In this document: positions 32,698 to 53,522 of the stretch, one piece after another | How positions within the stretch are numbered: the stretch's first letter is position 1 | Layout: each line of letters opens with the position of its first letter | From: Acetofilamentum sp. | GTDB lineage: Bacteria; Bacteroidota; Bacteroidia; Bacteroidales; DYOH01 | Assembly: GCA_020720625.1 (NCBI GenBank) | Contig: DYOH01000013.1 | Coordinates: 1-53,782, forward strand | Direction of reading: 5' to 3' | Length of the DNA stretch: 53,782 nucleotides | The notes under the pieces: model-generated | Told to the model about the DNA's origin: nothing | What the model saw: only the letters and a program-made list of their open reading frames with translations | Databases searched by the model: none | Made by a program: the position numbers and the translations under genes

Positions 32698-33633
32698 ATG
32701 AAAGTATCTGTTATTGGTGCAGGAAACGTTGGCGCCACTGTGGCTGATGTATTAGCACAAGGCGATTTTTTAAAAGAAGTAATTCTTCTGGACATTAAAG
32801 AAAATTTTGCAGAAGGTAAAGCCCTTGATATGTGGCAAACTGCTCCAGTAAGAATGAGCGACACTATCTTAAAAGGTGTAACTAATGATTATAGCGCAAC
32901 TGCCGATTCTGATATCGTTGTGATTACTTCTGGATTACCCAGAAAACCCGGTATGAGCCGCGACGATTTGATTGGTACCAATGCTAAAATTGTGAAATCT
33001 GTTACCGAAAACGTGGTAAAATACTCTCCAAATGCCATTATTATTGTGGTTTCTAATCCTTTGGATGTAATGAGCTATACGGCTTATCTTACTGCTAAGA
33101 TAGACAAAAGTAAAGTTTTTGGTATGGCAGGTATTTTGGATACTGCCCGTTATCGTGCTTTTATCGCCACTGAATTAAATGTTTCGCCTAAAGACATTCA
33201 GGCTTTATTGATGGGCGGACATGGTGATACCATGGTTCCACTTCCAAGATATACTACTGTTGCGGGTATTCCATTAACCCAATTAATGTCTAAAGAAAAA
33301 ATTGATGCTATCGTTACCAGAACCAAAAACGGTGGTGGCGAAATTGTTAAACTTTTGGGTACTTCGGCTTGGTATGCTCCGGGAGCTGCTGCTGCTCAGA
33401 TGGTTGAAGCTATTGCTAAAAATCAAAACCGTATTTTCCCCGTTTGTGCTTATCTTGACGGTGAATATGGTTTAAACAATGTATTTCTTGGTGTACCCGT
33501 TGTTCTTGGCAAAAACGGTATTGAGAGAATAATCGAAATTGAATTGAACGAGGTGGAGCGTGCCGATTTGGATGCTTCGAATAAGGCTGTTAAAGAAGTA
33601 ATGTCTGTTTTAGATAATATGAATTTGTTTTAA
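32698..33633 (+). CDS. mdh: Malate dehydrogenase
   Basis: 311 residues, the lactate dehydrogenase-like type of NAD-dependent malate dehydrogenase (TCA cycle). The Rossmann loop is GAGNVGAT at residues 7-14. The acidic residue after strand 2 (LLDIKENFAEGKALDMWQ) indicates NAD rather than NADP. The substrate-loop arginines lie in SGLPRKPGMSRDDL and the catalytic His in GGHGDTMVPL. All key residues are present. It is monocistronic with a strong terminator, as expected for a highly expressed gene. Confidence 0.96.
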   Translation: MKVSVIGAGNVGATVADVLAQGDFLKEVILLDIKENFAEGKALDMWQTAPVRMSDTILKGVTNDYSATADSDIVVITSGLPRKPGMSRDDLIGTNAKIVKSVTENVVKYSPNAIIIVVSNPLDVMSYTAYLTAKIDKSKVFGMAGILDTARYRAFIATELNVSPKDIQALLMGGHGDTMVPLPRYTTVAGIPLTQLMSKEKIDAIVTRTKNGGGEIVKLLGTSAWYAPGAAAAQMVEAIAKNQNRIFPVCAYLDGEYGLNNVFLGVPVVLGKNGIERIIEIELNEVERADLDASNKAVKEVMSVLDNMNLF

Positions 33634-34132: not shown

Positions 34133-34224
34133 AAACAAATAAACGAATAAACGAATAAACGAATAAACGAATAAACGAATAAACGAATAAACGAATAAAC
34201 GAATAAACGAATAAACGAATAAAC
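34133..34224. repeat. Octamer microsatellite, AAACGAAT x about 11
   Basis: Ten perfect tandem copies of AAACGAAT (34141-34220), preceded by one copy with a single mismatch (34133-34140) and followed by a partial AAAC. It ends 4 nt from the stop codon of the minus-strand lipoprotein gene. The unit is not a multiple of three. Confidence 0.97.
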
Positions 34225-34228
34225 TATC

Positions 34229-35893
34229 TTAATCTAACTTCCTGATGCTTAGTGCATCTACTTTATCAAATCTGAAATTTTTAAATGCAGCGGGGATTTC
34301 TATGGTCGAAAGTTTTGTTTTGCCAATTATTTCGGATTTTGCACCCATGTCGTGGTCAAAAACGCCAATGCTTAAAAGTGGATATTCCTCGTAACTGTAT
34401 ATTTCTACCACATCCATGTTTTTATAAACCGAGCTACTTTTGCTTACTTTCGATTGCCAGAATAAGGTATTTTCGGGATAAAATACGGCCCAAAAAATAT
34501 CGGCAGTTCCGCCGTTTTGTTTCAGTGAAAAATCTACGTTTGCATGTCTGTTTATATGTATTTCTTGCAGTTCAATGATGTTTGTATAAATAACGGGAAC
34601 TTTTATCTTGAAACGCAATTTGGCCCAAAGCCATTTTTCTTTTTTATCAATATATACCATATTCAAACTCGATTTCTTTCTCTCTTCGAATGCCTGAGAA
34701 TATGGTCGTTGGTATATGTACAGGCTTAATTCGTGCTCTCCTGTTCCTAATTCCTTGAATGCATATTTGGGAATTTTGATTTGCGAAACATAATTTTTTG
34801 CCGGCTGTTTTTGACCTAACTCAGTAAAGAAAAAATAGGCACTTTCGGTATATAATTTTCCGAGATTGTATTTTTTTAATTGGGCTGGAGCTTCAAGTAT
34901 TTTGCCTTGGTAGAAAATTTTATAGTTAAAAAATCCGGCATTGATGATTTTTTGATAGAGAGAGTCTGTTCCTGAAGGAAAATCTTTTGGAATTTCAATT
35001 TTTAGTTCAATGAACAATTCTTTATCCTTGTCTTTTATGTTGAGTTTTACAATTTCGTCGCTGAAATAGAGCGATTGTGTTTCTTTCTGATATTGCCATT
35101 TCAACAAATAATCCATTCTGCCGGCTTTTGATGCTTCTGTTTTGCTTAGATAAACCGTATTCTGACTAAAATTGTATTCATAGATGGTGTAATATTCTCC
35201 TTGCCAAAGCTTTAGCCTGTCGGGCGAAGTTTCTGTAAATAGAAATTCAAATTTGTCGAATTTATCGAGACCAGCGATGCTCGAGTTTTCTCTAAAATGA
35301 GCAATTTCTGATTGTTCAGAGGCCGATGATCCCCAGGAATAGCTTCCTTTAAGCAAATTCTGATTGATATATGTTTTTAGTATCTTTTCAATTTCTGAGT
35401 TTTTCTCCAGGGTTTTAATTTTTCGGTAATTGTTTATATCAATTAGTTTATTTTCAGTATCGTAAGTTTTAATTTGTAGCACCGTATCTGTCGACGAAAC
35501 AGAAAAAATCAGGAACATCCTGTTCTCGGATTCGGTGTTTTTTGCAAACTCAAAAATGTAGCCATTATTCACTTGCCTTAAAATGAGCGGTTTTATTGTT
35601 TGTGTTTTTTTATTGTTGATGGTTTCAATGGGCAAGGTATCGTTTCTAAGACTTAAATAGTCGATTTTAAAAAGGAGTAGATTTTTGTTTGTTTTTAGGG
35701 CTTTTGCTATGCTTTTTTCTTTTTCTAAGTTTTGAATAAAGTTATCTTCCAGCCAAAAACCTTCGGCAATGGAGCGTGTTGTTTGCAGGAAATTGAATTT
35801 AGTGTTCTCAACAGTTTGATTTTGATTTTCCTGGCAAGAGCCCAGGCAAATAAATATCAAAAAAAGTCCTGTAAGATTCCTTAAATTTTGCAT
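34229..35893 (-). CDS. Lipoprotein with C-terminal C2-like domain (paralogue A)
   Basis: A 554-residue predicted lipoprotein (signal ends CLGSC, Cys20). No family recognised for the N-terminal 270 residues. The last roughly 280 residues align with the neighbouring lipoprotein at 35899-36855: IPKYAFKELGTGEHELSLYIYQ versus IPKIAFHQLPRGKNTISLHIFQ, and DFSLKQNGGTADIFWAVFYP versus DFTLINRGYADVFWQL. The final 100 residues look like a C2 domain, with LLSIGVFDHDMGAKSEIIGKTKL resembling the C2 Asp loop and DxIG segment. It is the last gene of an apparent lptD operon (5-nt gap). Confidence 0.8.
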   Translation of the reverse strand: MQNLRNLTGLFLIFICLGSCQENQNQTVENTKFNFLQTTRSIAEGFWLEDNFIQNLEKEKSIAKALKTNKNLLLFKIDYLSLRNDTLPIETINNKKTQTIKPLILRQVNNGYIFEFAKNTESENRMFLIFSVSSTDTVLQIKTYDTENKLIDINNYRKIKTLEKNSEIEKILKTYINQNLLKGSYSWGSSASEQSEIAHFRENSSIAGLDKFDKFEFLFTETSPDRLKLWQGEYYTIYEYNFSQNTVYLSKTEASKAGRMDYLLKWQYQKETQSLYFSDEIVKLNIKDKDKELFIELKIEIPKDFPSGTDSLYQKIINAGFFNYKIFYQGKILEAPAQLKKYNLGKLYTESAYFFFTELGQKQPAKNYVSQIKIPKYAFKELGTGEHELSLYIYQRPYSQAFEERKKSSLNMVYIDKKEKWLWAKLRFKIKVPVIYTNIIELQEIHINRHANVDFSLKQNGGTADIFWAVFYPENTLFWQSKVSKSSSVYKNMDVVEIYSYEEYPLLSIGVFDHDMGAKSEIIGKTKLSTIEIPAAFKNFRFDKVDALSIRKLD

Positions 35894-50033: not shown

Positions 50034-51407
50034 TTACTTATTTGTTTTTTGTAGTTTACTCCTTTGGCTTTCAAGTTTTTCGATAAGCTCTTTTATTTCG
50101 GCTTCGCCGTTCCATTCGCTCAACACCTTTTTTTCACTGTCGAGCAGAAACAAAATGGGGGTGCTCGTAACGTAATATTTTGAGTGATAGTTATTCTTGT
50201 CGAGTGGGTCGTAAATATTGGTCCATAAATTTCTTACATCCTGTTCTACTAAAAATTTCTCCCAGTCGTTTTTATCTTCTTTGGTAAATACCGCCCAAAT
50301 GGCCACATCTAAATTATCGGTTTGATCGTAGAATTTTTTTAAATCCTTTATCGCAGTGGTGCAATGTCCGCAACCGGTTTTCCAAAAAAGTAATAAGGTG
50401 AGTTTTTCTGTAATGTCGTATAAATGAGCACTATCTCCATCAATGGTAAGCATCGATAAATTCGGAGCAATTTTTCCTATATCGGCCGATGTCCATTCGT
50501 CGGCGGTTTTTTTGATAATATCTTTTGCCTCGTAAGGAAGCCAATTAACCTTGGGGCTTAGAGCATATTGGTAGGCCAAATGATAAAACACCTTGTTTAG
50601 CCCTGTTTTTTGATATTTATAGAAAAAATCGAGCAAATAATTGAAACTGTATTTGAAAATTTCGTCGCTGGCTTGCGCTTTGTTTAGAAAACTATCTATC
50701 TCGGCCGTAATAATATGTGGTGGTTTCACATTGTTTACGTTGCGCACTAAAAGCGACTGTAAACTGCGGTAAATAACAGGGGTATAGAGCAAGCGGGCAT
50801 CATTAAAATTGATATTCCCGAAGTTCTGTCCGGCTGGCTGATTAAAGGCTCTGAGCAGGCTGCTTAAAAAATTATCGGCATTTTTTTGGGCTACCACTTG
50901 CCACATTTCTTCAGCTCTTTTTGCACTTTCGTCGAGCTTATTTTGGTAGAATTGTGTGCTATCGGCCGATAGCGATTTGTTTTTTAGTTTTTCGAGGTAT
51001 TCTTGTTGCAATACAATTTCGTTTCCTACACTTAATTGGTAATTGATAAAGTTGGTGTTTACATTCGAATTTTTAAATTCCACAGTCTGTATCGGAAATT
51101 CATAGCTCAGTTTTAAGGAAAACTTTTGATTTTCGGGCATGATAAAATCCATGCTTTTTTGCGAAAAAATAAAGCTATAAAGGCCTTGCGGCAGCGCTTT
51201 ACTATTTTTAAAAACGGCCTTTCCTTTAGCATCTATTTTGGCACTATCGGCAATAAACTGATTTTCGGCAAAATAATATACCATTAGTATGGTGCTGTCT
51301 TTTATATCTTTAAATTCCAGTTTTATCTCATAACCCTGTGCAAAAATACCCAGCTTCATTAATATCAGCGTTAATAAGGCAACTATTTTCATCGACATTT
51401 TTTTCAT
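50034..51407 (-). CDS. TlpA-type thiol:disulfide oxidoreductase with DUF4369-like N-terminus
   Basis: 457 residues with a signal peptide (ends LGIFAQ). The N-terminal 110 residues resemble the DUF4369 beta domain (IKLEFKDIKDSTILMVYYFAENQ). A helical middle (about 130-310) suggests DUF5106. The C-terminal thioredoxin fold has an intact redox motif FWKTGCGHCTTAIKDL and cis-Pro in STPILFLLD. Periplasmic proteins of this kind reduce or oxidise cysteines of envelope proteins. It is convergent with the propeller/SpoIIE gene (8-nt gap) and has no visible terminator between them. Confidence 0.87.
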   Translation of the reverse strand: MKKMSMKIVALLTLILMKLGIFAQGYEIKLEFKDIKDSTILMVYYFAENQFIADSAKIDAKGKAVFKNSKALPQGLYSFIFSQKSMDFIMPENQKFSLKLSYEFPIQTVEFKNSNVNTNFINYQLSVGNEIVLQQEYLEKLKNKSLSADSTQFYQNKLDESAKRAEEMWQVVAQKNADNFLSSLLRAFNQPAGQNFGNINFNDARLLYTPVIYRSLQSLLVRNVNNVKPPHIITAEIDSFLNKAQASDEIFKYSFNYLLDFFYKYQKTGLNKVFYHLAYQYALSPKVNWLPYEAKDIIKKTADEWTSADIGKIAPNLSMLTIDGDSAHLYDITEKLTLLLFWKTGCGHCTTAIKDLKKFYDQTDNLDVAIWAVFTKEDKNDWEKFLVEQDVRNLWTNIYDPLDKNNYHSKYYVTSTPILFLLDSEKKVLSEWNGEAEIKELIEKLESQRSKLQKTNK

Positions 51408-51442
51408 TGTAAAAATTTTGCTTCTAAAGATTTTGTGTGAAG

Positions 51443-51450
51443 CAAATATA
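51443..51450 (-). promoter_or_regulatory. -7 element before the TlpA-type gene
   Basis: Reads TATATTTG on the minus strand, matching TAnnTTTG, 35 nt before the ATG at 51407. Confidence 0.45.
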
Positions 51451-51696
51451 ACAAAAACTTATGGCCGTTTTAGTAAAAAAAAGTTAAACATATTTCATTA
51501 TGATATAATGGGCTGAAAAACTAGATTTTGGCGTGTATTTTACATTCAAAGTACTATTTCTTTTGCTAAATTGCTTTACTCATTTTGGCTAAATGTTTAA
51601 GTAATTGTGTGCAGATGTTCATTTTGGTTTTATCTCATGTATACATGGGTAATTGAATTTATGAAAGCGTTTTTTCAATAAAAAAGGAAACAAAAG

Positions 51697-51760
51697 TTTT
51701 TTTTCATAGTTTGTTGGTTTTAGGTAAAGCTTAGAAAGGGCACTTTGGATCCCTTTTTTT
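51697..51760 (+). ncRNA. Candidate small RNA, copy 1 (conserved 33-nt block plus terminator)
   Basis: The 33 nt at 51697-51729 (eight T, then a block starting CATAGTTTGTTGG and ending AGGTAAAG) recur exactly at 51933-51965. In this copy they are followed after 5 nt by stem AAAGGG (51735-51740)/CCCTTT (51751-51756) and a T-run, the form of an intrinsic terminator. The hairpin loop differs from copy 2. No open reading frame is present. The transcript start is not clear, because ATAGTTTG only partly fits the -7 consensus. Confidence 0.5.
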
Positions 51761-51932
51761 GTTTTTCTTGCGAAAGAAACTTTTTCTCGAAAATATTTCG
51801 GAAAAAAATATGGTTACTTATTGGAGATAGTTGGAAAAATGTACTTTTCTTGAAAAAATCTTCTGTTTTTATCAAAAAAATGAAACATCTTTTTTTTAGT
51901 AGCGTATACGAGAGTATAGGTTAAGAAATAAA
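51761..51932. other. Spacer between the two RNA-like copies
   Basis: AT-rich with no reading frame. I see no extension of the repeat into this spacer apart from weak A-rich similarity just before each T8 run. Confidence 0.35.
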
Positions 51933-51995
51933 TTTTTTTTCATAGTTTGTTGGTTTTAGGTAAAGGTTAAAAGGGCTCGACGGAGCCTTTTTTTT
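51933..51995 (+). ncRNA. Candidate small RNA, copy 2 (conserved 33-nt block plus strong terminator)
   Basis: An exact repeat of the 33-nt block, 236 nt downstream of copy 1. It continues GTTAAAAGGGC, nearly as in copy 1, and ends in a strong hairpin GGCTC-GACG-GAGCC (51974-51987) flanked by A-run and T-run. The stem sequence differs from copy 1 while the stem-plus-T-run form is kept, which is what selection on a terminated RNA would produce. Confidence 0.5.
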
Positions 51996-52346
51996 ATGCT
52001 TTGTTCTAGTAATAAATCAGTTTTTTACGCTTGAGATGTGGCGTTAATTCTTTTCTTCATTTTTCGTCATGTTCAATAACTTTGTGAATTGACAAATCGG
52101 TGCTTTCCGAAAGCTTAAGCCATTCTTCGGCATCGTCGAAATAACCAAGAATTTAGAATAAGGACTTCTATAAAGAAATTAGTTCGTTTTTTTAAATAGA
52201 ATTTCGTAAAAAAAAGTTTTGAGATGGAAATTTTTCTAAAATTGAAAAGTATTTATATTTGTTGTTAAGTATATATCCGTGCAAATGATAAGTTCCCTTG
52301 CTAAAAAATATAGGTATAATACTTAATGTTTAATAATCAGTAAACT
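51996..52346. other. Gap before the MORN/TonB-C-like gene
   Basis: Mostly noncoding. A minus-strand stretch at 52057-52152 reads as 31 protein-like residues (FDDAEEWLKLSESTDLSIHK) but has no start codon and is preceded by a stop. It may be the remnant of a gene. Confidence 0.3.
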
Positions 52347-53522
52347 ATGAAAAAATCTATCGTATTATTAATTGTACTTTTTTGTGCAGCCTATCCTGTA
52401 TTTTCGCAGCAATTCGAGATTAAAGAATACTTCAAACCCGACAGTAACGGGCTAATAAACGGCGCATACTTACTGAAATGTAACGATACCTTGCTTACAA
52501 AAGGCTACTTTCAGGATGGCAAGAAATTCGGCAGGTGGACATTCTATAATTACCGTGGTGAAAAAACTATCGATGGTTTTTTTCTCAACGATTCACTGCA
52601 CGGGCAATGGACCTATTATAAAAATAATAAAAAAATGAGCCTGATAAATTATAATCAGGGTACACTGCACGGAAAAGTTGCATCATACTATCCAAATGGT
52701 AATTTGCGAATTTCGAGTACATATAATAACGGTATGATTGATGATACCTTAAGCGCTTACGACGAAAATGGGGTAAAGAAAATTGAAGTTGTTTTCGATC
52801 ATAATAGACCTGTTTCTATATTGAAAAGTGAAATAAGCAACAACATTTATTTTGGCTTTGCCGGTGATTTAATAAATGGAAATGGAAAGTATGTTTTTCT
52901 GGCACAATACATGGGTGCAATGATAAAGCTAGAAGAAAGGAATTATGTAAGTGGAAAACTACACGGAAAATATGAATCCAAAGAATATAATGTAAGAAGT
53001 GTAGCAGGATATATAGAAAGTGATTTACTAACAGGAACTTGGACGTTTCTTGATGAAAATGGAACTTTAGTAGAAGAAAAGGAATATCAAATGTCTGATA
53101 GTATCCCTTTTTCATTTATATCAGAATATGAACAAACGGCTAATAAGCAAATTTTATTGAACAAACCATTATATTTTGCAGAGGAATATCCTAAATTTTT
53201 AGGCGACAGTATTTTTAGAAAATCAAGGAGCTATTATCCGGTAGAAAACATTCGGAAAATATCACCAAATGAAACCATGCTCAGACAATATTTAAAAACT
53301 CAAATGGCACATTTTGATATACCTACAAAAGGCACTTTCAGAATCAGGTTTATTATTGGTAAATTAGGCGAAATTAACTCTGTGCAAATAATACAAAATA
53401 ATCTTAGTGAGGAAATTGAATCTGAAATCATTTCTATTATTTCAAATCTCCCATTTTTTGAACCTGCATACGAAAACGGATTTCCTGTTAATTTTATCCA
53501 TTTTGAAAATTTTAGTTATTGA
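52347..53522 (+). CDS. Secreted MORN-repeat (YwqK-like) protein with TonB-C-like end
   Basis: 391 residues with a signal peptide (ends YPVFSQQ). Residues about 25-150 contain MORN/YwqK-type repeats (KKFGRWTFYNYRGEKTIDG, LHGQWTYYKNN, LHGKVASYYPNGNL), and another run occurs around 200-240 (LHGKYESKEY, LTGTWTFLDENG). The C-terminal 85 residues (KGTFRIRFIIGKLGEINSVQIIQN to NLPFFEPAYENGFPVNF) look like a TonB C-terminal domain. Such proteins are often called antitoxin YwqK-like or TonB-like in this phylum, but the real role is unknown. The gene stands alone. Confidence 0.75.
   Translation: MKKSIVLLIVLFCAAYPVFSQQFEIKEYFKPDSNGLINGAYLLKCNDTLLTKGYFQDGKKFGRWTFYNYRGEKTIDGFFLNDSLHGQWTYYKNNKKMSLINYNQGTLHGKVASYYPNGNLRISSTYNNGMIDDTLSAYDENGVKKIEVVFDHNRPVSILKSEISNNIYFGFAGDLINGNGKYVFLAQYMGAMIKLEERNYVSGKLHGKYESKEYNVRSVAGYIESDLLTGTWTFLDENGTLVEEKEYQMSDSIPFSFISEYEQTANKQILLNKPLYFAEEYPKFLGDSIFRKSRSYYPVENIRKISPNETMLRQYLKTQMAHFDIPTKGTFRIRFIIGKLGEINSVQIIQNNLSEEIESEIISIISNLPFFEPAYENGFPVNFIHFENFSY

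Follow-up and report, generated by a model that had tools for sequence, protein, structure and literature searches.

Two tandem repeats with their own terminators as putative FopS-like small RNA genes antisense to translation starts in Acetofilamentum

Introduction

FopS small RNAs are known from the Bacteroidaceae, where their paralogous genes are dispersed and the RNAs repress transporters of glycans. Bacteroides thetaiotaomicron carries 14 copies of these 65-70 nt RNAs, which keep susC mRNAs from being translated by pairing at their start codons and which are bound and antagonised by the RRM protein RbpB (PMC11697453). GibS similarly binds translation start regions and represses the operon adjoining its own gene (PMC7366714), and for both RNAs the mechanism has been demonstrated experimentally in Bacteroides (PMC11697453; PMC7366714).

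Here we compare with these systems a locus near the end of the window (i.e., the whole 53,782-nt stretch of DNA that was analysed). A first-pass annotation had read two repeats in this locus as a possible pair of small RNAs with terminator ends, and this reading is now supported by the orphan state of the terminators and by the recurrence of the pair at another locus in a second genome of the genus (G001). Judged on their sequence, the two copies are probably tandem plus-strand genes for FopS-like small RNAs that would block start codons. The pair is a diverged FopS-like variant that lies outside the FopS family (RF04319) by Rfam score—we call it a variant rather than a member because its anatomy is FopS-like and its scores fall below the family threshold.

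Results

A duplicated block in a non-coding gap

The repeat is an exact 33-nt duplicate on the plus strand (51697-51729 and 51933-51965), with copies spaced 236 nt apart that remain about 70% identical over the next 10 bases 3' of the block, as the first-pass annotation had described. The block opens with a T-run of 8 bases, which leaves an informative core of 25 nt. At 33 nt the duplicate is almost twice as long as the longest repeat of shuffled sequence (maximum 16-18 nt in 15 Markov shuffles of the whole window; no more than 15 nt when the 0.94-kb gap was shuffled 50 times). That gap (51408-52346) is flanked by divergent genes, and every ORF within it is shorter than 60 aa, in agreement with the earlier statement that no protein is encoded there. 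The features of the locus are as follows.

50034-51407, minus strand: gene for a DUF4369/thioredoxin-like protein, left flank of the gap
51674-51696, plus strand: A-rich stretch 5' of copy 1, loosely like its counterpart at copy 2; either a 5' leader or DNA close to the promoter
51697-51729, plus strand: block copy 1 (U-run, CAUAG, UUUGUUGGUUUUAGGUAAAG), proposed to act as an unpaired seed complementary to start codons; exact repeat, also present in G001
51735-51760, plus strand: terminator of copy 1, whose inner stem is weak; -9.4 kcal/mol, z -1.08, aligned to the model hairpin
51910-51932, plus strand: A-rich stretch 5' of copy 2 (GCATARGTAAAGAAATTAAA), conserved with both G001 copies
51933-51965, plus strand: block copy 2, proposed seed; exact repeat, aligns to RF04319
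51969-51995, plus strand: terminator of copy 2; 10 pairs, loop GACG, -13.4 kcal/mol, z -3.07
52335-52355, plus strand: translation start of the MORN_2 gene, candidate target; 21 contiguous pairs with the block (G-U allowed), start codon included
52347-53522, plus strand: gene for a MORN_2 protein, right flank of the gap

Elsewhere in the window, an 8-bp unit is repeated in about 10 tandem copies at 34138-34222, between the convergent genes 32698-33633 (plus) and 34229-35893 (minus).

Terminators and promoters

Each copy had been assigned a hairpin followed by a T-run. On the plus strand this holds strongly for copy 2; the hairpin of copy 1 is present but weaker, and its terminator was missed by the terminator scan of the sequence. 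The copy 1 stem pairs AAAGGG with CCCTTT around two inner mismatches, and a competing fold arises once the block is included in the folding. The annotation holds no plus-strand gene directly upstream of the two terminators and, because the genes flanking the gap are divergent, no annotated gene needs them and both are orphans.

A search for sigma-ABfr promoters returned nothing significant 5' of either window copy and a weak one at copy A of G001. A sigma-70 scan is uninformative in Bacteroidota. FopS loci above threshold carry TAnnTTTG about 12 nt before CAT, and in FopS a sigma-ABfr promoter places the start at the U-run.

Copies in the same genome and in a sister genome

The first-pass annotation had proposed searching related genomes for the block. 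In G001, the only other genome of the genus examined, the block occurs as two tandem copies 228 nt apart, each with a terminator; an adk-like gene lies on one side of them and an M18 peptidase gene on the other. The M18 gene of the window genome is on another contig, and the stretch examined around it has no block; the locus of the pair is therefore not the same in the two genomes. Copy 2 and both G001 copies are also conserved for about 25 nt 5' of the block. The hairpins of copy 2 and of the G001 copies (GGGCTC-GACG-GAGCCT, GGGCTC-AACG-GAGCCC and GGCTCAA-AA-TTGAGCC) differ in sequence and keep their pairing, which extends to G001 the earlier observation that the hairpins share a form and not a sequence. 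The one genome examined from a second genus of the family (G002) yielded no copy, and an exact 20-mer match in Schleiferia, encountered in a scan of genome contigs, lies within a protein-coding gene and was discarded as chance.

Within the window genome (3.8 Mb, 143 contigs), no further copy of the block was found at up to three mismatches. This result bears on the main alternative of the first-pass annotation, a repeated element or transposon end, which would account for near-identical copies 236 nt apart and for the different position of the pair in the window genome and in G001. Yet the block occurs only twice in 3.8 Mb, both copies end in a terminator and their hairpins are unlike one another, which makes repeat or transposon-end sequences an extremely improbable explanation.

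The copies could also be tandem leader attenuators controlling the downstream plus-strand gene at 52347, given that tandem terminator-bearing copies lie 5' of a same-strand gene in both the window and G001. However, these downstream genes are unlike (MORN_2 and M18 peptidase), the gene downstream of comparable units in G167, G186, G113, G065 and G017 is on the opposite strand, and the conserved part has no aptamer-like fold; we consider attenuation very unlikely.

Small RNA genes of the FopS kind exist as multicopy paralogues, and the window genome likewise holds, beside its two tandem copies, a third, diverged FopS-like unit (G000:C42:5010-5093, i.e., L180 1011-1094, minus strand) that scores 45.5 bits with a covariance model described below (R2). 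This C42 unit consists of CATAGGTTAAGGTTAGGTTAATA and a terminator and is divergent from a response-regulator-like gene.

Match to the FopS family

The window copies have no match in Rfam at gathering thresholds. In a permissive Rfam scan, RF04319 aligned to 51933-51999 over model positions 1-71 (22.0 bits, E 0.6) and in full length to 51696-51763 (18.8 bits, E 2.4), both far below its gathering score of 56 bits; taken alone, these scores would be at chance level. Nor does RF04319 alone single out the window copies in their own genome, where the sub-threshold matches C139, C70 and C28 proved to be gene starts or ambiguous and were rejected. The top RF04319 match in G001 is its copy B (33.4 bits, E 0.0048). 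At E of 1 or less, RF04319 had matches in 39 of 41 relatives and, among 14 genomes of well-known bacteria used as controls, in Bacteroides ihuae and B. subtilis only, an excess that must come partly from gene starts of the phylum that resemble the reverse complement of the motif. BTnc231 (RF04180) aligned weakly over copy 2 (16.0 bits against a threshold of 80.4), which lends no real support.

We also used a covariance model trained on the window copies (W1 and W2) and GB, all from this genus (R1). Its matches in other families score 30-41 bits, and their number is close to the chance expectation for 198 genomes; the case for these loci rests on anatomy and context. RF04319 was trained elsewhere and not on the genus of R1, and R1 loci that are also best RF04319 matches comprise L028 (38.1 bits), L020 (37.2), L032 (30.1; less sure, with an antisense frame open for 125 aa) and a G017 unit (43). 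Conversely, R1 recovers units that had been found with RF04319 in G017 (33.1 and 27.8 bits) and G012 (27.0 bits). The broader model R2, which includes some RF04319-derived units and is only partly independent of that family, finds above-threshold FopS loci in the correct place and on the correct strand (L036, L037, L038, L040 and L041, and also L042), with E values for those FopS loci of 0.01-0.3 in 111 kb. The terminator helix covaries at 9 of 9 pairs in a 21-unit alignment that was itself fitted to that structure.

In anatomy, the window copies share with FopS a U-run, CAU(A/G)G, a U/G-rich single-stranded antisense part containing AGGU and a terminator with a U-run, as well as the presence of more than one copy per genome and of an encoded RRM_1 protein. 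They differ from FopS in their seed (CAUAGUUUGUUGGUUUUAGGUAAAG as opposed to CAUgGUAUUAGAUUUAAGGUUAA), in their arrangement (two tandem units and one distant unit vs. 12-15 dispersed copies), in their RF04319 score (18.8-22.0 vs. 56 bits) and in that no SusC bias was seen among the leaders of the window genome. With GibS they share a long single-stranded 5' seed predicted to pair over start codons, whereas the length of GibS (about 145 nt) is accompanied by a second seed and middle hairpins, neither of which was seen in the window copies. Common descent with FopS, rather than convergence on an antisense-to-start design, appears likely.

Complementarity to translation starts

The reverse complement of the block (AAACCAACAAACTATGAAAAA; ACCAACAAACTATGAAAA; CTTTACCTAAAACCAACAAACTATGAAAAAAAA) resembles a Bacteroidota gene start. 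The block thus reads as antisense to a Bacteroidota-type translation start—a property that the first-pass annotation left unremarked—and, as in FopS, a U-run is joined to a CAU seed with predicted pairing to starts. A rival reading takes the block for what is left of gene starts on the minus strand (ATGAAAAAA), or for their antisense, with a terminator adjacent. The block does open MKKNFCFLFY and MKKNLFLNLYSRIRY on the minus strand, and many model matches in other classes of the phylum are ATGAAA starts beside a terminator. However, the ORFs opened in this way are only 10 and 15 aa long in the window and 34 and 25 aa in G001, with frames that do not agree between the two, the terminators are on the plus strand with no plus-strand gene upstream, and conservation lies in the block with no peptide conserved. 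We accordingly assign a very low probability to a gene-start origin.

Pairing of the block with start sites was assessed in 324 genes of the window genome, drawn from 0.4 Mb of sampled stretches. The in-register pairing of the part after CAU, upstream of AUG, has a mean run of 1.03 compared with 0.727 (sd 0.036) in shuffles, and exceeds all 300 of 300 shuffles. Eight genes reach 14 contiguous pairs against a shuffle mean of 2.0, a count of eight being reached in 20 of 500 shuffles. The top in-register gene, at G000:C8:11227, encodes a SIMPL-family protein (23 pairs) and the second is the neighbour at 52347 (21 pairs). By free duplex energy, internal ATG windows scored as well as start regions, and the extremes of the real RNA were equalled by the best of the shuffled ones; a ranking of targets by duplex energy was dropped, because only its third-best value, which surpassed 80 shuffles, stood out from the controls. 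Visual inspection of the leaders of seven SusC-like genes that pass the family cut-off showed no special complementarity, and the regulon may for this reason differ from SusC-type targets.

These results also weigh on the possibility that the copies encode trans-acting small RNAs whose conserved part mainly binds an RbpB-like RRM protein or RNA (as a sponge), without blocking start codons. RbpB does bind FopS RNAs (PMC11697453), the window genome has a single gene for an RRM_1 protein (99 aa), and unconstrained duplex energies at start sites equal those of controls. Set against this are the in-register complementarity of start sites above shuffles and the fact that FopS works via start-codon pairing (PMC11697453), and we regard a mainly protein-binding or sponge role as unlikely.

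FopS-like units elsewhere in the order

FopS-like units were found across the order, several of them as tandem arrays: four units in G167, two in G012, two in G017, and in G031 at least five at one locus and two at another. The G167 array (L145 2254-3099, on G167:C12) has a spacing of about 255 nt, and three of its units carry a TTTG-N18-TAnnTTTG promoter 29-31 nt upstream of CAT. Genes on both sides of this array, and of single units in G186 and G113, are on the opposite strand. Given these promoters and opposite-strand flanks, the unit there stands as a small gene of its own and belongs to no 3' UTR or leader.

Two further observations concern these arrays. In G167, a repeated GTTTAAC..GCTTAAC-type motif that resembles a regulator binding site lies 5' of each promoter. 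In G031 (L149 3039-5553, G031:C35), the array of at least five variant units has TTCTTCATAGAATAAGGGTTAAGGTTAGGTTA in place of the TTTTTTCATAG form.

R2 matches in other classes of the phylum were not counted as family members, many of them being minus-strand gene starts beside a terminator; the look-alikes are ATGAAA starts of proteins of 149-511 aa with the terminator adjacent. At the loci L153, L155, L158, L160, L162, L166, L172, L175 and L177, the matches are often antisense of signal-peptide gene starts by a terminator. Signal-peptide gene starts beside terminators are thus a trap for automated searches of this FopS-like family.

Discussion

Under the reading as start-codon-blocking small RNAs, each copy would give rise to a short RNA composed of an unstructured part (U-run, CAUAG and UUUGUUGGUUUUAGGUAAAG) and then the terminator hairpin; depending on where transcription starts, this RNA would measure about 60-105 nt or somewhat more. 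The unstructured part, antisense of ..CCAACAAACUAUGAAAA, would cover the AUG of target mRNAs by base pairing and block ribosome loading, like FopS and GibS in Bacteroides, and an RbpB-like RRM protein could modulate the RNAs. The neighbouring gene at 52347 would be the first candidate target; if it is indeed a target, the pair would resemble GibS in repressing an adjoining gene. We infer that the copies are transcribed, where their RNAs start, that these RNAs pair with mRNAs in vivo, which genes they target and that the RRM protein has a role and, by analogy, a mode of action for the window pair that would be the same as that of FopS and GibS.

More tentatively, Bacteroidales beyond the Bacteroidaceae might widely carry tandem arrays of autonomous small RNAs antisense to start codons, with FopS as one branch and with lineage-specific seeds that track the start context. 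We hold this to be possible and rather doubtful; if such arrays are widespread, control of translation initiation by these RNAs would be a general feature of the order.

If the window pair and its counterparts are distant relatives of FopS, then start-codon-blocking small RNAs would be older and more widespread in the order, would also occur as arrays, and would include units that the current Rfam threshold misses. For an unstudied lineage, the analysis provides concrete, testable targets.
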